A DNA stretch of 37,392 nucleotides from Olsenella profusa (GTDB lineage Bacteria > Actinomycetota > Coriobacteriia > Coriobacteriales > Atopobiaceae), in NCBI RefSeq assembly GCF_016900315.1, contig NZ_JACSNQ010000019.1, positions 1 through 37,392 on the forward strand, in the 5' to 3' direction. Below, in pieces: positions 29,619-36,183 of the stretch. A model generated the notes under the pieces. It made no database searches. It worked only from the letters and a program-made list of their open reading frames with translations, and was not told the origin of the DNA. How positions within the stretch are numbered: the stretch's first letter is position 1; each line of letters opens with the position of its first letter. The translations under genes and the position numbers were made by a program.

Positions 29619-29753
29619 GAGTGTACCCAGCCCGGCGGCCCGGCAAACCATTTAGGTGACACAACGTTACTAGTGCGGGGCGGGAGGTGCGTGTGGGTGC
29701 GGGGCGGCGGTTCTTCTCGCCGGTTTTCTCGCCCGACGCCCCTCTTGCACCAG

Positions 29754-29935
29754 GTGCACCCTCCGAGAGCCTCTCTCTGCCAAGTGCACCCCTCCGCTGG
29801 GTGCACTCCTCAAGTGCACCGCGCCATGAGTGCACCTAACGCCAAAAGGCCCGTTTTGGGTGCACTTGGCGCTAAATCCGGCAGAGGGCGAGTGCACTTG
29901 ACGAGTACACCCCACATGACACTTGCCAAGTGCAC
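29754..29935 (-). repeat. GTGCAC-box array C (between clpC and the nuclease gene)
   Basis: Eight perfect GTGCAC words at 29754, 29784, 29801, 29814, 29830, 29860, 29892 and 29930, plus GTACAC at 29905. Read on the minus strand, boxes at 29892, 29860, 29830, 29814 and 29801 have spacings 32-30-16-13, identical to arrays A and B. Sequence between boxes is also related, for example CCAAGTGCACCCAAAA here and CAAGTGCACCCAAAT in A. The rest of the 588-base clpC-nuclease spacer holds the clpC promoter region and CGAGAAGAACC motifs near 29710 and 29995. Confidence 0.9.
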
Positions 29936-30166
29936 TAGGAAAGCGCCCATCGCACGTCAGCCACCCTCTATGGTGATTCCGTAGGCCGGCACGGCGAGAA
30001 GAACCTGCCTCCAACCACGTCCCCGGCCCAGAAAGCCCCGCACCCAGCGGTTTCTCGCTGACTCGAACGCAAGTCGGACGCTAGCCGGAAGGTTACCGGC
30101 AGCTACGAGCAAGCGCCTCTCCCTACGATGGGGCGGTCAGGCATCCCCCAGGGCGGAAGGGGACGT

Positions 30167-31264
30167 ATGAACGCCGTGCTCACGCAGGAGGACTCGCTCC
30201 GGCTGCTCAGAATCGTGCGGACAAGCCCCGAGCTGCGGCTCATCCCCTGTAGCGCACGCTCCCTCCGCACCGAGGAGGCAGGCCGATGCTCTCTTGACCT
30301 ACCCCTCCTATGCGCCGCCCTGCCCGAACAGATGAGGACGCCAGCTCGCGAGCATCCGCTGCAGGTGCTGTCCTTCTCAAGAGAGGCACGCTGCAAGTCA
30401 GACTTCGTACATCCATCGGCCATGCTCTGCGACCCGCCCGACGACTCGTTCCTGGAGGTGGCCCGCACCGACGGGGCACCTCTGGCCGAAGGGGTCGGAA
30501 GCCAGGCACGCTTCTTCGTGGAGACGCCGGCGCTGAGCCTCATCAGGATGTCTCATTCCATGGAGCGTCGCGTCCGGGACGGCGCCTTCTCTCACGACGC
30601 GGCGCTGATCAGGCTGGCCGCGCTGGCCATGGAGATGTGTGGGACCTATGCGCGGGACCCCATCGACCCCGGGAGGGGCACCACGACCTACGACGTGTCC
30701 TCGCTGTGCTCTCGCACCGAGCTCGACGCCTTCCTGACCCAAGCCCCACGTCTTCACGGAATCCGCCTGGCCCGTCAGGCCACCGCGCTCGCACGCGACG
30801 ACTCGGGCTCGCCGCATGAGACGCTGCTCTCGTTTGCCTTTCGGCTCTCCGCGCAGATGGGCGGCGCGGAATTTGCCGAGCCGCTCCCGAACACCCCGCT
30901 CGCATGGCCCGACCACGCCCGCCCCCTCCTCAAGCACCACGCGATGCGACCCGACTTTCACTGGCCGCAATACCTGCTCGCCAGCGAGTACCTTGGCGGA
31001 AAGCACGGGGAGGGGGACGAGTACGTCGAGGACAGCAATCGCGTGCAGGACTACCAGAGCTGCGGCTACAGCGTCTTCCCGGCAACCTACGAAGACATCC
31101 GAAGCACGCACGCACTCGGCCGCTATCTCGCGCGCCTTGTAAGGGTGATGGCGCTCCACGAGGACGATCGATTTGCTCGCGAGAAGAACGAGCTCCTGCT
31201 TGACCCGGACGTAATACAGGCGAGGGCGGTGCTCATCGCGCACCTCCTGCCGCCGCGGAGGTAA
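30167..31264 (+). CDS. DUF559/Vsr-like endonuclease-fold protein, function unknown
   Basis: This 365-residue protein is not a characterised enzyme. Its C-terminal part looks like the PD-(D/E)xK fold of DUF559/Vsr-type proteins: Asp263 in RPDFHWPQY, Glu274 in ASEYLGGKHG with Gly277, Lys279 and His280, then a conserved-looking RVQDYQSCGYSVFPAT strand-helix. The middle region, with SPHETLLSFAFRLSAQMGG and NTPL, matches the layout of actinobacterial AbiEi-like/DUF559 proteins. The ATG at 30167 has GGAAGGGG upstream; an ATG at 30128 is less likely. It is the only plus-strand gene between rpoC and tatA, and sits between inverted outward-pointing GTGCAC arrays in the clpC-lysS gap, which suggests a cassette. 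Composition resembles its neighbours. Confidence 0.75.
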   Translation: MNAVLTQEDSLRLLRIVRTSPELRLIPCSARSLRTEEAGRCSLDLPLLCAALPEQMRTPAREHPLQVLSFSREARCKSDFVHPSAMLCDPPDDSFLEVARTDGAPLAEGVGSQARFFVETPALSLIRMSHSMERRVRDGAFSHDAALIRLAALAMEMCGTYARDPIDPGRGTTTYDVSSLCSRTELDAFLTQAPRLHGIRLARQATALARDDSGSPHETLLSFAFRLSAQMGGAEFAEPLPNTPLAWPDHARPLLKHHAMRPDFHWPQYLLASEYLGGKHGEGDEYVEDSNRVQDYQSCGYSVFPATYEDIRSTHALGRYLARLVRVMALHEDDRFAREKNELLLDPDVIQARAVLIAHLLPPRR

Positions 31265-31356
31265 GTGCGGAACGGGGGCGGGCGCGGGACCTTCTGGGCA
31301 ACATGGCACCACGCCGCCGCGCTTCCGAAACGGCGTCTTGGGTGACAGCGCCCCGG

Positions 31357-31495
31357 GTGCACCCGTTAAGTGCACCCGGGGCGCTGCTGATTTGACGTTA
31401 TGTGCACCGAAAACCGGACTTTTTACGTCAGGTGCACCCGGGGTCGGGTGCACCTGAGGGGTGCACTTGGCGGCAGTGCGGTTGCCGGGTTGCAC
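31357..31495 (+). repeat. GTGCAC-box array B (between the nuclease gene and lysS)
   Basis: Six perfect GTGCAC words at 31357, 31370, 31402, 31432, 31448 and 31461, plus TTGCAC at 31490. The last five perfect boxes have spacings 32-30-16-13. Boxes at 31432 and 31448 lie in the arms of a perfect 12-base hairpin, CAGGTGCACCCG/CGGGTGCACCTG (31429-31440, 31445-31456). The array fills most of the 298-base spacer after the nuclease gene; no lysS terminator with a U-tract is visible. Confidence 0.9.
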
Positions 31496-31562
31496 CTAGC
31501 GGCGGGGCAGCAGCCGCACTCGCCGGGGGCACGCTTGGCGGCAGGGCCGCCCCGGCCCGCCG

Positions 31563-33788
31563 CTACTTGCCGAAGGTGTCGCGGTCGGGCGCGATGGCGC
31601 GCATCGCGTCGATGGTGCGCGAGAAGAGCTCGTCGAGCTCCCAGCCGCAGAGCTCGGCGCCCTTGCGGATGACGTCGCGGTCGCACCCGGCGGCGAAGCG
31701 CTTGTCCTTGAACTTCTTCTTGAGTGACTTCACCTCGAAGTCCATCACGGACTTGCTCGGCCGCATGATGACGGCCGCGCCGATGAGACCCGTCAGCTCG
31801 TCCACGGCAAAGAGCACCTTCTCCATCGGCAGCTCGGGCGCCGGCAGGTCGGGGTTGTTGTCCGAGTTGTGGGACTGGATGGCGTGGATCAGCTCCTCGG
31901 AGCCGCCGGCCGCGCGCAGCCACTCGGCAGCGTAGGTGGTGTGGCCCGTCGGGTCGTCGCCGCGCTCCTCCCAGTCGAGGTCGTGCAGGATGCCCACGAC
32001 CTCCCAGAAGTCGGCGTTGTCGGGATCCATCTCAAGGGCAAACTGGCGCAGCACGCCGCCCACCGTGCAGCCGTGCTCCAGGTGGAACTCCTCCTTGTTG
32101 TGCTCGGCGAGAAGGGCCAGCGCCTCGTCGCGCGTGAGCCCCGCGTCGAGCGCGGCCGGCCCCGTCGTGGCGCCCGAGCCAGCGGAGACCTTCTCGGCGT
32201 CCGCGGCGATGGCGTCCACCGAGGCGGCGGCGTTGTCCGTCACCACGCCCGCCACCTGGGCCTGAATGTCGGCGTGGGTGATGGTCTCGGGCTTCATGGC
32301 CGGGAAGAGCAGCACGTCGCGGATAGCCGGCTGGTCGCAGAAGAGCATGATCATGCGGTCGATGCCGTAGCCGATGCCGCCCGCCGGGGGCATACCGTAC
32401 TCGAGGGCGCGCACGTAGTCGTAGTCGTAGCCCATGGCCTCGTCGTCGCCCATACCCTTGGCGGCCACCTGCTCGGCAAAGCGGCCCGCCTGGTCGACGG
32501 GGTCGTTGAGCTCGGAGAAGGCGTTGGCGTACTCGTGGCCGGCGATGACCAGCTCAAAGCGGTCGGTAAGGCGCGGGTCCTCCTCCTTGCGCTTGGAGAG
32601 CGGGCTCACCTCCTCCGGGTAGTCGCAGACGAAGGTGGGGTTGACGATGGTCTTCTCGCCAAGCTCGTCGTAGAGCTCAAAGAGGAGCTTGCCGGCACCC
32701 CAGGAGGGCTGCACCTCGATGCCGTTCTTCTCGCAGAGCTCGCGCAGGTGCTCCACCGGGGTGTCCATGTCCACGTGCTCGCCCACGCACGCGGAGGCGA
32801 TCTCGGAGAGCGGGCGGCTGGCCCACTCGCCGGACATGTCGATCTGCTGGCCCTGGTAGGTGATGACCTCGTGGCCCTCCTCGCAGCCGCAGACCTCGCG
32901 CGCGATAGTCTTGAAGAGGCCCTCGGAGAGGCGCTTCATGCCCTCGAGGTCGGAGTAGGCGCAGTAGGCCTCCATCGAGGTGAACTCGGGGTTGTGCGTG
33001 AGGTCCATGCCCTCGTTGCGGAACTGGCGGCCGATCTCGAAGACGCGCTCCATGCCGCCCACAATGAGGCGCTTGAGCGGCAGCTCGGTGGCGATGCGCA
33101 GGTAGAAGTCGCGGTCAAGGGCGTTGAAGTGGGTCACGAACGGCTTGGCGTTGGCGCCGCCGAGAATGGCATGCATCATCGGCGTCTCCACCTCCATGTA
33201 GCCGTCGGCCTCCATGTAGCGGCGAATCAGGGAGATGATCTGGCTGCGCTTGCGGAAGACGTCGCGGACCTCGGGATTCATGATGAGGTCGACGTAGCGC
33301 TGGCGGTAGCGGACCTCGCGGTCGGTGAGTCCGTGGAACTTCTCGGGCAGCGGGCGCAGCGCCTTGGAGAGCACCGTCAGCGAGGTCGGCGAGACGGACA
33401 GCTGGCCGCGGCGCGTGCGCAGGACGGTGCCGGTGGCGCCGAGGATGTCGCCCAGGTCGAGCTGGGAGAGCAGCTCCCAGCCCCTCTCGCCGAGCACGTC
33501 GTGGCGGCAGAAGAGCTGGATGGAGCCCGTCACGTCCTCGAGCACGATGAAGGCGGCCTTGCCCTGCTTGCGCAGGGCGCGGATACGACCGGCGACGCTC
33601 GCCACGTCCTCGGTGTCGCTCCCGTCGGGCAGCTCGACATAGCGCTCCTCGAGCTCGGCGGCGTGCGCGGTGACCTCGGAGTGGATGGGGTAGGGGTTCA
33701 CGCCCGCGTCGAGAAGCGCCTGGCGGCGGGCGCGGCGCATCGTGCGCTCGTCGGTCGCCGCGGCCCCCTGGGCGGTGGTTTGTGCCAT
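31563..33788 (-). CDS. lysS: Lysyl-tRNA synthetase (class II) fused to a C-terminal HD-domain hydrolase
   Basis: The 741-residue product is far longer than the usual 490-510. Residues 1 to about 496 are a complete LysRS: OB-fold anticodon domain, FRNEGMDLTHNPEFTSMEAY (motif 2) and GIGYGIDRMIMLFCD (motif 3). After an Ala-rich linker of some 55 residues comes an HD domain with His572, His602-Asp603 (GILHDLDWEE) and Asp663 (FAVDELTGLIGAAVIMRPSK), resembling standalone HD/HDIG proteins of about 190 residues in Firmicutes. The ATG at 33788 (MAQTTAQGAAATDERTM) has AGGAG upstream. The frame runs through unbroken. It follows greA. The HD domain's substrate is unknown. Confidence 0.95.
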   Translation of the reverse strand: MAQTTAQGAAATDERTMRRARRQALLDAGVNPYPIHSEVTAHAAELEERYVELPDGSDTEDVASVAGRIRALRKQGKAAFIVLEDVTGSIQLFCRHDVLGERGWELLSQLDLGDILGATGTVLRTRRGQLSVSPTSLTVLSKALRPLPEKFHGLTDREVRYRQRYVDLIMNPEVRDVFRKRSQIISLIRRYMEADGYMEVETPMMHAILGGANAKPFVTHFNALDRDFYLRIATELPLKRLIVGGMERVFEIGRQFRNEGMDLTHNPEFTSMEAYCAYSDLEGMKRLSEGLFKTIAREVCGCEEGHEVITYQGQQIDMSGEWASRPLSEIASACVGEHVDMDTPVEHLRELCEKNGIEVQPSWGAGKLLFELYDELGEKTIVNPTFVCDYPEEVSPLSKRKEEDPRLTDRFELVIAGHEYANAFSELNDPVDQAGRFAEQVAAKGMGDDEAMGYDYDYVRALEYGMPPAGGIGYGIDRMIMLFCDQPAIRDVLLFPAMKPETITHADIQAQVAGVVTDNAAASVDAIAADAEKVSAGSGATTGPAALDAGLTRDEALALLAEHNKEEFHLEHGCTVGGVLRQFALEMDPDNADFWEVVGILHDLDWEERGDDPTGHTTYAAEWLRAAGGSEELIHAIQSHNSDNNPDLPAPELPMEKVLFAVDELTGLIGAAVIMRPSKSVMDFEVKSLKKKFKDKRFAAGCDRDVIRKGAELCGWELDELFSRTIDAMRAIAPDRDTFGK

Positions 33789-33812
33789 GGTTGCTCCTGT
33801 CTTCTCACAGAT

Positions 33813-33848
33813 GCGCCCCGTACCTGCTGGCATGCAGACACGGGGCGC
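33813..33848 (-). terminator. Hairpin between greA and lysS
   Basis: GCGCCCCGT (33813-33821) pairs with ACGGGGCGC (33840-33848), with an inner CTGC/GCAG pair. No U-tract follows, so it may only attenuate transcription from greA into lysS. Confidence 0.5.
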
Positions 33849-33878
33849 CTCGCTTGCTTTGGATAAGGAAGTCCAGTC

Positions 33879-34358
33879 CTAGCGGGAGATCCCCGTAATG
33901 GTGTACTTCCTCGCTTTGCCGGAGGGCGCGACGACCTCGATCTCGTCACCCTTCTTGTGGCCCACCAGGGCGCTGCCCACGGGGGACTCGTTGGAGATCT
34001 TGTGCTCGAGGGAATTGGTCTCGGTGGTGCCCACGATGGTGAACGTGGACTTCTTGCCCTTCTCGTCCTCAAGCTCCACGGTGGTCCCGATGGAGACCGT
34101 GAGGTTGCGGCCGCTGCCGGCCTCCACGATGACCGCCTGGGAGAGGATCTGGCGAATCTCGTTGATGCGCGCGGCGTTGCGCGCCTCCTCCTCCTTGGCG
34201 GCGTCGTACTCGGAGTTCTCGGAGAGGTCGCCGAAGCCGCGGGCCTCCTTGATGCGCTCGACGATCTCCTCGTGCTTCTCGCCCTCGCGCAGGGCCAGCT
34301 CGTCGACAAGGCGCTGGCGGCCCTCGGGGGTGAGCTCGATCTTCTTGGCGTTGTCCAT
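33879..34358 (-). CDS. greA: Transcription elongation factor GreA
   Basis: GreA enters the polymerase secondary channel and stimulates cleavage of backtracked RNA. The 159-residue product has the N-terminal coiled coil with the acidic tip FGDLSENSEYDAAKEE (the conserved Asp and Glu are present) and the C-terminal FKBP-like domain ending SGKARKYTITGISR. The ATG at 34358 has AGGAG upstream. It follows tatA by 44 bases and precedes lysS, an order also found in other Gram-positives. Confidence 0.97.
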   Translation of the reverse strand: MDNAKKIELTPEGRQRLVDELALREGEKHEEIVERIKEARGFGDLSENSEYDAAKEEEARNAARINEIRQILSQAVIVEAGSGRNLTVSIGTTVELEDEKGKKSTFTIVGTTETNSLEHKISNESPVGSALVGHKKGDEIEVVAPSGKARKYTITGISR

Positions 34359-34402
34359 GTGCTGCTCCTACCTAAACGTGCTGCTCTGACTGCTGCGAAC
34401 CA

Positions 34403-34729
34403 CTAGTTGAGCTTGTTGCCGCACTTGGAGCAGAACTCGGCGTCGGCGGCGTTCTTGGCGCCGCACTTGGAGCAGAAGATAGCGTCGGAAGAGGCCTCCT
34501 CGGGGGCGTCGGCGTCATCCTCGTCCTCGATGACCTCGACGTCGTCATGGGACTCGATGGGGCTGTCGGACTTCTCGTCCTTGTCGTCGCCCTCCTCCAT
34601 GCCCTCGCGGACGTTCTTCACGGTCTTGCCGAGGGCGGAGCCGATCTTGGGCAGGTTCTTGGGCCCGAAGATCAGCAGGATGACAACAACGATGACGACG
34701 AGCTCAAGCGGGCCCAATCCTAAAATCAT
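34403..34729 (-). CDS. tatA: TatA/E-type twin-arginine translocase subunit with C-terminal zinc ribbon
   Basis: TatA forms the pore-like oligomer for export of folded proteins. The 108-residue product has one N-terminal membrane helix (LGPLELVVIVVVILLIFGPK), the conserved FGPKNLPKIG hinge and amphipathic GKTVKNVREG helix, then an acidic tail. Unusually, the last 26 residues form a double CxxC zinc ribbon: FCSKCGAKN and FCSKCGNKLN. The ATG at 34729 has GGAAGG upstream. No tatC is in the window. Whether it acts as TatA, TatB or only as a TatA-like anchor is unknown. Confidence 0.88.
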   Translation of the reverse strand: MILGLGPLELVVIVVVILLIFGPKNLPKIGSALGKTVKNVREGMEEGDDKDEKSDSPIESHDDVEVIEDEDDADAPEEASSDAIFCSKCGAKNAADAEFCSKCGNKLN

Positions 34730-34791
34730 GGTGAAGTGTCCTTCCGATGCGATGTCTCAAGCTGGGCCCGAGGCCCAATACAGCATCAGCT

Positions 34792-34821
34792 AGTATAGCC
34801 GAGGTTATGCGCACCTCACAA
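34792..34821 (-). promoter_or_regulatory. Candidate promoter of tatA-greA-lysS
   Basis: TTGTGA (34816-34821) is 18 bases from TATACT (34792-34797) on the minus strand, about 63 bases before tatA. A TGGGCC/GGCCCA hairpin lies in the leader near 34764-34778. Confidence 0.55.
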
Positions 34822-34894
34822 TCTCTAAACGTCTCCAAACGCGAGAAGTTCGGCGCCCCGGACGCCGCGACTCGCCCGAGCCCGGGAGGAACCC

Positions 34895-35743
34895 TTGAGG
34901 GAGCTCGTCATCGGCCTTGTTGTCCTGACCGTCGTCTGTACCGCCGTGCTGGCCGCGCTGCCGTGGCTGCTGCGCCGACGCGGCGTGGACATGCTGCGGA
35001 CGAAGTTCGGCATCACGCTCGTATTTGACTCGGAGGACCTCGACCACACGCCCGTACGCCTGCTCAACGTCAACGGCACCTTCCAGAGCGCCTGCTACGT
35101 GCCCGAGGACCTGCGCTTCGAGCTGGCGTGCGTGTACCACCGCGAGATGGCCGCCGTCATCGAGAGGCTCGTCGCGGCACGCGGGGCCAGCCGGGAGCGG
35201 CCGCTGCGCGTGATGGTCATGGGAGGGGGCGGCTACTCGCTGCCCAAGTACCTGGCCGCGTTCGTCCCGGCGGTGCGGACGGACGTGGTGGAGGTGGACC
35301 CCGCAATCACCCAGCTGGCGCGCGAGCGCTTCTTCCTCGACGAGTGCCTCGAGAGGACGGGCGCCGAGAAGGACGGGCGGCTGCGCCTGGTGACCGGCGA
35401 CGCGTGGGCGTTCCTGCACGCAGCCGAGGACCCCTACGACGTGATCGTGAACGACGCGTTCTCCGGGAACCGGCCGCTCGGCCCGCTTGAAACCGACGAG
35501 GGCGCGCGCGTGATCCGCGAGCACCTGGCCGCGGGCGGCGTCTACCTGGCCAACGTGCGCTGCGCGTGCACCGGGCGCCGGTCGCGGCCGCTGCGCGAGG
35601 TCGAGGAGGCCTTCGGGCGCGAGTTCGCCCACGTCTGGTACGTGCCCGAGTGGCCGGACGAGCCGGAGAAGCCCGGCAACAACGCGCTAGTGGCCACCGA
35701 CGCGACGCTGGCGATGCCGGAGGGCGCCGTCACGGTACGGTAG
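34895..35743 (+). CDS. Membrane-anchored spermidine-synthase-like (Rossmann methyltransferase-fold) protein
   Basis: The 282-residue protein has an N-terminal membrane helix (residues about 5-26, VIGLVVLTVVCTAVLAALPW followed by RRR), then a SpeE-like Rossmann domain: VMVMGGGGYSLPKYLA near residue 107, DVVEVDP as the acidic ribose-binding strand near 130, GDAW and NDAFSG near 190. It lacks the N-terminal strand domain of true spermidine synthases, so it is best called SpeE-like with unknown substrate. The start is TTG at 34895 with GGAGG upstream. It is divergent from tatA and ends before array A. Confidence 0.8.
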   Translation: MRELVIGLVVLTVVCTAVLAALPWLLRRRGVDMLRTKFGITLVFDSEDLDHTPVRLLNVNGTFQSACYVPEDLRFELACVYHREMAAVIERLVAARGASRERPLRVMVMGGGGYSLPKYLAAFVPAVRTDVVEVDPAITQLARERFFLDECLERTGAEKDGRLRLVTGDAWAFLHAAEDPYDVIVNDAFSGNRPLGPLETDEGARVIREHLAAGGVYLANVRCACTGRRSRPLREVEEAFGREFAHVWYVPEWPDEPEKPGNNALVATDATLAMPEGAVTVR

Positions 35744-35821
35744 GGCGCGGGGCGCGGGGCTCGGGCGCTGGAGTGCTGGGCAGTGCGGGCCGCGGGCCAG
35801 GCATGCCCTTCGAAGCGGCCT

Positions 35822-36023
35822 TCATACGCCAGGTGCACCCGCCGGGGGCCTCCCATGCGTTAGGTGCCCCCGTCTGAGCTGTTCTCATACGCCAGGTGCA
35901 CCCGCAAGCAATCTCCCATGCGCTAAGTGCACCCGGGATTGCGGCATTTTGACGTCAAGTGCACCCAAATCTAGGGATTTTGCGTCAAGTGCACCGAGGT
36001 CTCGGTGCACTTGGGGAGTGCAC
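35822..36023 (+). repeat. GTGCAC-box array A, preceded by a 63-base-period duplication
   Basis: Seven perfect GTGCAC words at 35833, 35896, 35927, 35959, 35989, 36005 and 36018, plus GTGCCC at 35864. The last five have spacings 32-30-16-13, as in B and C. Upstream, about 51 bases starting TCATACGCCAGGTGCACCCG are duplicated at 35822 and 35885. Boxes at 35989 and 36005 lie in an 11-base hairpin AAGTGCACCGA/TCGGTGCACTT. The rest of the 440-base spacer is GC-rich without a recognisable gene. Confidence 0.9.
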
Positions 36024-36183
36024 TTAAGCATGCGGGGCGGTCGGACGCGCCTACGGAGCGCACGTGCGGGGCTCGTCGGACAACCGGGTACACCTGCGCG
36101 GCACACCCGGGGAGTGGCGCCCCAAGAGGCGCACGTGCGCGTGGCGCGGGCGAGAAGGACGTCGGACCGCCACCCCACCGCGC

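Follow-up and report, generated by a model that had tools for sequence, protein, structure and literature searches.

The window analysed here, a stretch of 37,392 nucleotides from Olsenella profusa, raises the question of what keeps a short word, GTGCAC, at one fixed spacing in three separate intergenic sites, and which protein may read it. The whole window holds 32 perfect GTGCAC words against 12.0 expected, and none of 100 shuffles contained 32 or more. A sequence-only reading had counted eight, six and seven of these words in three spacers, and the counts were confirmed (29754-29935, 31357-31466 and 35833-36023, respectively), together with start-to-start distances of exactly 32-30-16-13 at all three sites, two on the plus strand and one on the minus. 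The hand estimate of about 70% identity between the first two sites was also correct, with 68 of 97 positions identical. The elements and the gene enclosed by the first two are the following.

29799..29912, minus strand: element A, five-box pattern with exact 32-30-16-13 spacing; box starts 29892/29860/29830/29814/29801; profile match 29799-29912, 88.2 bits.
30167..31264, plus strand: bracketed gene, likely start 30167, 365 aa, between A and B; proposed partner of the element.
31355..31468, plus strand: element B, five-box pattern with exact 32-30-16-13 spacing; box starts 31370/31402/31432/31448/31461; profile match 31354-31470, 93 bits.
31390..31423, plus strand: phased A/T tracts of unit B (31390-31393, 31410-31413 and 31420-31423), around box 2.
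35912..36025, plus strand: element C, five-box pattern with exact 32-30-16-13 spacing; box starts 35927/35959/35989/36005/36018; profile match 35918-36027, 82 bits.

Element A is a single unit within an island of eight boxes (29754-29935), with the start of clpC on one side and the bracketed gene on the other. Element B, inverted with respect to A, carries all six boxes of the full unit described below and separates the bracketed gene from the 3' end of lysS. Element C is one unit between convergent genes for a spermine/spermidine-synthase-like protein and a glycerate kinase; its sixth box is not clear, and extra GTGCAC boxes are found upstream at 35833 and 35896.

The proposal that these sites belong to a repeat family was borne out when the search was extended to the genome and its relatives. 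With up to three mismatches allowed, the five-box pattern occurs at 19 places in the whole genome, labelled G000 below (13 perfect, five with one mismatch and one with three) and the reversed control pattern at none, while a profile search finds 25 strong units. The layout is also present in relatives, with another word. The earlier size of about 110 bases falls short of the full extent, which is about 115 bp: most of the 19 copies have a sixth box that precedes box 1 by 13 bp, the conserved span runs from about -15 to +98, and the ends of the unit are inverted, with boxes paired at each end. Mean identity among the 19 copies is 0.65 within the unit and 0.30 and 0.32 in the flanks. No target-site duplication was seen by unsystematic inspection.

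Fixed geometry had been attributed to selection on structure or on protein binding, and the analysis of the copies favours the second of these and speaks against the first as far as RNA structure is concerned. All 30 box bases are intact in 13 of the 19 copies, whereas non-box positions average 50% identity, and RNA folding of the copies gives a covariation term of -0.19; for these reasons the unit looks like a DNA-protein site. The spacers carry A/T tracts with a period of about 10 bp, as strong in none of 2000 permutations, in which 211 of 228 cells are A or T (242 of 817 in the other spacer cells of the 19 copies). A/T tracts stand 8 and 18 bp past the first base of box 2, and in the first tract of the unit A and T are equally frequent and swap freely, which points to DNA shape. 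A family of structured RNAs or terminators would be compatible with a consensus fold that can pair boxes 3 and 4 as a hairpin; we regard it as very improbable given the near-zero covariation, the free A/T swapping in one tract, a terminal stem with 85.2% of its cells paired (85.3% in shuffles) and an Rfam search of the window that matches only tRNAs at gathering thresholds. The data thus support, at the level of sequence, the GTGCAC unit as a candidate protein-binding DNA site and not an RNA structure.

The position of the tracts recalls the uptake signal of Haemophilus, in which a box is followed by A/T tracts. Uptake words with species dialects would likewise be short and lineage-specific in spelling, as the boxes are, with A/T tracts just past box 2. 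Nevertheless, known uptake words count hundreds to thousands, and the genome of 2.07 Mb holds 151 WAGTGCACY against 77 of the reversed control, many of them, among the matches listed, falling in the islands. We consider this explanation the most remote of those weighed.

The arrangement around the 365-aa gene is shared by its relatives. In 30 full-length homologues the upstream and downstream flanks share a median of 15.5 11-mers, compared with 1 for 38 control genes, and 18 of the 30 reach the 99th percentile of random pairs (11 shared 11-mers). The other 12 are below this threshold, one of them without any shared 11-mer, and bracketing is also seen by eye in further homologues beyond the 18. 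The controls retain one gene with a GTGCAC island on either side (24 shared words) and a copy of the family in G091 under an over-long call (7 shared words), which makes the comparison conservative. At the lysS locus most of the bracketing pairs are inverted, and in clades II and III of the family the copies are direct.

The bracketed protein itself has no match in Pfam, NCBIfam, PADLOC or the PDB; two coat-protein matches in the PDB profile search (E 0.36 and 0.6) were taken as chance, and a single-sequence structure prediction failed (pLDDT 33). The family evolves fast and is under purifying selection, with dN/dS of 0.12-0.33 over eight pairs. Homologous short paralogues reach DUF559 or REase_MTES_1575, one of them scoring 22.1 bits against a DUF559 cut-off of 20.6, and Asp263, Glu274, His280, Asp289 and Arg292 are invariant in all 30 homologues and retained in three short paralogues. 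These residues, which we take to be catalytic, link the family to PD-(D/E)XK proteins of the DUF559 and REase_MTES_1575 types, although, unlike those, the bracketed protein matches no family directly. It is possible on this basis that it represents a PD-(D/E)XK nuclease distantly related to DUF559-type proteins. A DNA comparison limited to more than 74% identity over more than 250 bp gave 77% matches to one stretch (L197) that look like paralogues and were set aside. An origin from a phage or plasmid was rejected: no relatives of the protein were found in the plasmids or phages searched, none of ten pattern matches in viral contigs was confirmed, and the four-box pattern had no match in those contigs.

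Across the genus the word changes with the protein. G091 and G092 hold 11 units with the same layout and GTGYAT in place of GTGCAC, and at the clpC/lysS locus many members carry multi-box elements with other words, as does the lysS site of some genomes lacking the gene there. The proteins of G112 and G090 (91% identical) share a word, as do those of G113, G107 and G096 (93-95%), and the members of each set stand apart in the lysS tree; G103 groups with G091 and G092 by protein and word, whereas the lysS tree places it with G000 (support 80). These groupings, with element words at the lysS site assigned by eye, suggest that the words follow the tree of the bracketed protein and not that of lysS.

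Dispersal of the words was compared by per-genome totals, which include the copies bracketing the gene. The GCCGGC/GCCCGC palindrome is found at 5-28 sites in nine genomes with the matching gene and at 0-13 in 22 others (p=2.5e-5); when phylogeny is taken into account, about five of six independent pairs agree and none opposes (p ~0.06). The same phylogeny-aware test on 12 genomes grouped by protein clade (threshold 4) gives p ~0.03, a grouping in which the palindrome covers the words of only nine, the nine used for p ~0.06. The word of clade III exceeds its control by 35, 24, 14 and 6 in four genomes with the gene, the best other genome reaching +10; all four independent pairs agree, a number too small to reach significance. 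Most clade II words are local: those at the gene itself make up 13 of 19 in G106 and 7 of 10 in G102. Dispersal is seen only in G087 (two of nine at the gene), while G098 has dispersed clade-II-like words without a full-length gene. The palindrome has exceptions as well: it occurs without an assembled gene in G099 (13 sites) and G105 (4), whose lysS contigs end there, without such a gene in G102 (4), G092 (3), G087 and G098 (2 each), and despite a different own word in G090 (5), G112 (4) and G085 (2). For two of the three word classes compared, dispersal is seen chiefly where the genome has the matching gene. Because the phylogeny-aware p is ~0.06 and clade II words are mostly local, the gene product is regarded as partner of the element with moderate confidence.

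The tendency of word to track gene also bears on the possibility that a host protein, architectural or regulatory, binds the element, which selection would keep beside housekeeping genes, with the bracketed gene as one of several accessory cargoes. BIMEs are binding sites for gyrase or IHF, and phased A/T tracts would suit a bent or wrapped complex. The units adjoin lysS, valS, aspS, leuS, guaB, ffh, rpsI, rpsL and groEL-type genes, nine of the 25 islands lie between convergent gene calls, and an MFS gene, as well as an ABC-type gene with a 510-aa gene, are bracketed too. Such a role would leave unexplained why the word tracks the bracketed gene across incongruent trees and why matching words are enriched where the gene is present; we judge it unlikely, while giving it more weight than any other competing explanation.

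Segments bounded by inverted elements are themselves inverted between species at two loci. A 1.4 kb segment between two inverted elements is flipped between G091 and G092; its tRNA-Ala genes, which form an inverted pair of their own, were rejected as the cause because a tRNA-Met gene outside the pair moves with the segment. Relative to lysS the bracketed gene, its orientation assigned by eye, changes direction at least four times among 16 genomes, and its presence changes eight times among 27. These changes, together with the 1.4 kb flip, might be expected if a conventional site-specific recombinase acted on the elements to invert and exchange the segments between them, with the bracketed gene only as cargo. 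However, the four Phage_integrase matches of a whole-genome search fall at three places, each more than 5 kb away from any listed element, so that no tyrosine recombinase was seen beside one; inverted repeats could also give rise to inversions by homologous recombination or template switching. A conventional recombinase therefore appears improbable. An IS1595-like transposase frame beside a double unit on contig C54 was discarded too, since it looks degenerate, with boxes on one side only.

The known system closest to these observations is that of RAYTs. According to PMC2817692, PMC3116915 and PMC8266576, the RAYT gene (TnpA-REP) is flanked by its repeats and evolves faster than its neighbours, repeat and protein change together, the abundance of REPs and REPINs follows the presence of the gene, and the units are intergenic palindromes of 20-40 bp. 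The overall logic here is similar: the bracketed gene is flanked by its own repeats in 18 of 30 homologues and evolves faster than the genes beside it, the word changes with the protein, and word abundance follows the gene for GCCGGC/GCCCGC and the clade III words, with exceptions, clade II remaining mostly local. In contrast to RAYTs, the protein has no Pfam match, including PF01797 (Y1 HUH), and is instead a putative distant relative of DUF559-type proteins; in contrast to REPs, which bear a GTAG or CGTC tag, the unit is a six-box structure of about 115 bp with phased A/T tracts and nearly invariant boxes. Y1_Tnp matches do occur in 28 of 31 genus genomes, two of them in G000, so that the units could be conceived as REPs or BIMEs mobilised by a RAYT, a Y1 transposase. 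Neither RAYT of G000 adjoins a GTGCAC unit, both being flanked on both sides by other palindromic repeats, in all ten RAYT stretches studied (from seven other genomes; 10 of 17 fetched) the gene is surrounded by repeats with other words, and G085 and G096 have no Y1 match yet carry elements. The resident RAYTs have their own repeats and were rejected as partners of the GTGCAC word, and mobilisation by a RAYT is hardly to be expected.

CGTC-tagged REPs, according to PMC3733652, are found in intergenic regions, frequently downstream of genes or between convergent ones, and are apparently without a dedicated transposase. The GTGCAC units are also intergenic, often between convergent genes and with no RAYT partner known; they differ in not being a tagged single palindrome, CGTC preceding box 1 in 6 of 19 copies, box 2 in 5 and box 3 in 6-7. 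The earlier remark that no described element with such a layout was known to its author agrees with the open-access literature searched, in which we found no description of the element or of repeats paired with a nuclease, and no cognate repeats for a DUF559 or Vsr protein; this suggests that the partnership of a repeat with a DUF559-like protein has no prior description there.

We propose that the GTGCAC unit acts as a recognition element in double-stranded DNA, and we lean slightly towards the product of the bracketed gene as its partner and as the maker and keeper of the family. The six short boxes, paired at the inverted ends and separated by helically phased A/T tracts, would form a site to which several copies of one protein probably bind, and the likeliest such protein is encoded between A and B, the possible PD-(D/E)XK nuclease. 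We infer that this product may bind, cut and copy the unit. The gene with its bracketing elements would be autonomous, and the remaining 23 strong units would represent non-autonomous relatives that it makes and keeps; a lineage gaining another version of the gene would see another word spread. Cutting or nicking at the boxes may promote flipping, and would account for the inversion of segments bounded by inverted elements. More tentatively, and at somewhat less than even likelihood, the system may represent a second, independent design of RAYT/REP type in bacteria, in which a domesticated PD-(D/E)XK nuclease reads a multi-box word, spreads it intergenically over the chromosome, causes segments between copies to be inverted and exchanged, and introduces a new word with each gene replacement.

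The question addressed is how short intergenic repeats are spread and kept up without a RAYT, as the CGTC-tagged REPs also appear to be, lacking a dedicated transposase according to PMC3733652. The system offers a fixed geometry, 25 strong copies, a candidate partner gene, natural word variants (GTGCAC and GTGYAT) and natural gene replacements, which makes specificity accessible through swaps of the word or of the gene. Should the partner be confirmed, the PD-(D/E)XK nucleases, a superfamily familiar mainly from restriction and repair, would have given rise to an enzyme that maintains repeats, and the recurrent inversions beside housekeeping genes would acquire a candidate mechanism.

The hexamer GTGCAC occurs 32 times in the window versus an expected 12.0, a count reached in none of 100 shuffles. 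The sequence-only reading had reported 8, 6 and 7 boxes in three intergenic spacers, five in each at start-to-start distances of 32-30-16-13; these counts were recovered, and the spacing was exact at units A, B and C:

29799..29912, minus strand, unit A, about 115 bp
31355..31468, plus strand, unit B
35912..36025, plus strand, unit C
30167..31264, plus strand, gene for a 365-aa protein between A and B (the bracketed gene) at the clpC/lysS locus, proposed partner of the element and possible PD-(D/E)XK nuclease

Across the 2.07 Mb of the genome (56 contigs) the five-box pattern was found at 19 places with up to three mismatches, and the reversed control at none. A sequence-only profile built from the 19 copies gave 65 matches on both strands, 25 of them at 50 bits or more and each at a separate place; weaker variant islands (clusters of boxes) lie at 94.8 and 97.3 kb of contig C11. 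Judged from mechanical gene calls, 17 of the 25 islands are outside every call and the remaining 8 overlap a short call, a 5' extension or the end of a call, with convergent calls flanking nine. Their neighbours are housekeeping genes (lysS, valS, aspS, leuS, guaB, ffh, rpsI, rpsL, groEL-type) and accessory ones, e.g. for acyltransferases, MFS and ABC proteins. Two direct-orientation islands flank a pair of genes, one ABC-type and one of 510 aa, and the counterpart place in the related genome G103 aligns only outside the islands.

The gapless alignment of the 19 copies delimits a unit of about 115 bp, conserved between about -15 and +98 (numbered from box 1), with an identity of 0.65 across 114 bp versus 0.30 and 0.32 in the flanks. 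Most copies have a sixth box at -13 from box 1, so that the unit ends are inverted box pairs 13 bp apart. All 30 box bases are intact in 13 of the 19 copies, while a single base differs in five others and three bases in the remaining copy; mean identity at spacer positions is 50%. In the four-base tracts at +20, +40 and +50, 211 of 228 cells are A/T versus 242 of 817 other spacer cells, the first tract with equal A and T (34 each) and the other two dominated by one letter (A 64/76, T 58/76). From box 1 to box 3 the A/T profile has a 10-bp period, equalled in strength by none of 2000 permutations. RNA covariation was absent (consensus fold covariation term -0.19), and terminal stem pairing showed no gain over shuffled partners (85.2% versus 85.3%). 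We read the unit as a putative DNA site for several protein molecules.

Among 140 family genomes, including its own, the five-box pattern with up to two mismatches is confined to this genome (18) and G103 (2); a four-box search of public genomes added one record, an uncultured Atopobiaceae MAG. Both G103 copies lie in stretches (L066 and L067 versus L204 and L195) of 4.3 kb, 98.8% identical to our genome, and 5.8 kb, 97.2% identical. These copies look recently transferred, because other collinear stretches compared are only about 84-93% identical, and the transfer looks to have brought a foreign word (box spelling) along. The lysS site of G103 has its own word, AAGTGTATT, in the same orientation. 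A degenerate three-box pattern occurs 18 times in our genome, 7 in G091, 4 in G092, 2 in G103 and once in G105; G034 and G124 each have a single, possibly chance match, and the remaining 133 genomes have none. The 11 G091/G092 units preserve the layout, with box 3 at 63 rather than 62 from box 1 and box 2 at 32 or 33. Between G091 and G092, whose flanks keep the same orientation, a 1.4 kb segment (a transglycosylase gene and four tRNA genes) bounded by two inverted elements is inverted. The breakpoints map near, not demonstrably inside, the elements: they are at most about 80 bp from one and, for the other, at most 108 bp in G092 or 730 bp in G091.

Up to 560 bases downstream of lysS were inspected in 30 of the 31 genus genomes, two contigs ending early. 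Palindromic multi-box elements follow lysS in most, with spellings that vary by lineage (GAGTGCCGGC, GAGTGCGGCC, AAGTGCGGGC, GGTGCGGGC, TTGGGTACTTTTT and others); none was seen within these bases in G088 and G111. The bracketed gene occupies this site in 16 genomes, nine convergent and seven co-directional with lysS; on the lysS tree its orientation needs at least four changes among the 16 and its presence or absence eight among 27. Another gene, which looks acyltransferase-like by eye, takes its place in G110, G095 and G111 (L085, L104, L109), and in the first two it is preceded by an element whose inverted ends are of the TTGGGTACTTTTT type. The word TTCTTCTCGCC / GGCGAGAAGAAC (window ~29711-29721 and 29994-30004) recurs, by eye, in spacers genus-wide and in loops of clade II hairpins. 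The 740-aa lysS frame (window 31563-33785) matches HD domain PF01966 near its C-terminus (E 1.7e-4, 22.3 bits, cut-off 22), a possible LysS-HD fusion.

The bracketed-gene family has 30 full-length members across 23 of the 31 genomes. Their upstream and downstream flanks have a median of 15.5 common 11-mers versus 1 for 38 control genes; 18 members reach the random-pair 99th percentile (11 common 11-mers) and one has none, and palindromic elements stand on both sides of each of the eight members initially read at other loci. The protein of our genome is only 36-45% identical to the 29 others, while LysS identity is 89-93% for 29 of 30 relatives and 77% for the other, G088; dN/dS is 0.12-0.33 in eight pairs. 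The protein itself has no family match; all three short paralogues scanned gave weak matches to DUF559 or REase_MTES_1575, of which one passes the Pfam cut-off, and these paralogues have the family's invariant residues. The flanks of one short paralogue of DUF559 type, whose frame contains a TAG (L243, G000:C53:53200-55900), have 30 common 11-mers that belong to another palindromic word, which suggests that bracketing may extend past the full-length family; three other short paralogues have 0, 1 and 0.

The protein tree recovers the groups G112/G090, G113/G107/G096 and G103/G091/G092, within each of which there is one word or near word, and the lysS tree splits these groups; these are single-gene trees with long branches, and support for our genome with G103 is only 80. 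Copies that bracket the gene may just move along with it, so a stronger test comes from those dispersed elsewhere. Sites of the GCCGGC/GCCCGC palindrome number 5-28 in the nine genomes whose bracketed gene has that word versus 0-13 in the 22 others (p=2.5e-5; reversed controls 0 in 29 of 31); considering phylogeny, about five of six independent pairs fit and no pair runs counter (p ~0.06). Counter-cases are G099 (13) and G105 (4), which lack an assembled gene and whose lysS contigs stop at the locus, G102 (4), G092 (3), G087 (2) and G098 (2), together with G090 (5), G112 (4) and G085 (2), which have a different word of their own. Clade III words exceed control by 35, 24, 14 and 6 in the four genomes with a matching gene, the best other genome reaching +10; hairpin arrays occupy eight of nine fetched G089 places, and the ninth is a chance match within a gene. 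For clade II words the totals are 9, 10 and 19 versus at most 7, mostly at the gene itself (7/10 in G102, 13/19 in G106), with dispersal in G087 only; clade-II-like words are present in G098, which has no full-length gene.

Two RAYT-type genes of our genome (L128, G000:C16:5389-5727; L141, G000:C11:24515-24850) each have their own REP-like palindromes, and own-word repeats surround the gene in all ten RAYT stretches examined from seven other genomes. PMC2817692 names as hallmarks of the RAYT/REP pairing flanking repeats, fast gene evolution, co-evolution and abundance that tracks the gene. The system of the bracketed gene largely shares them, although this gene is not a RAYT. We propose that the bracketed protein is likely to read the boxes; that it also spreads them is less certain, and we hold this tentatively. 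As an overall explanation, a partnership of element and bracketed gene is one towards which we lean slightly.
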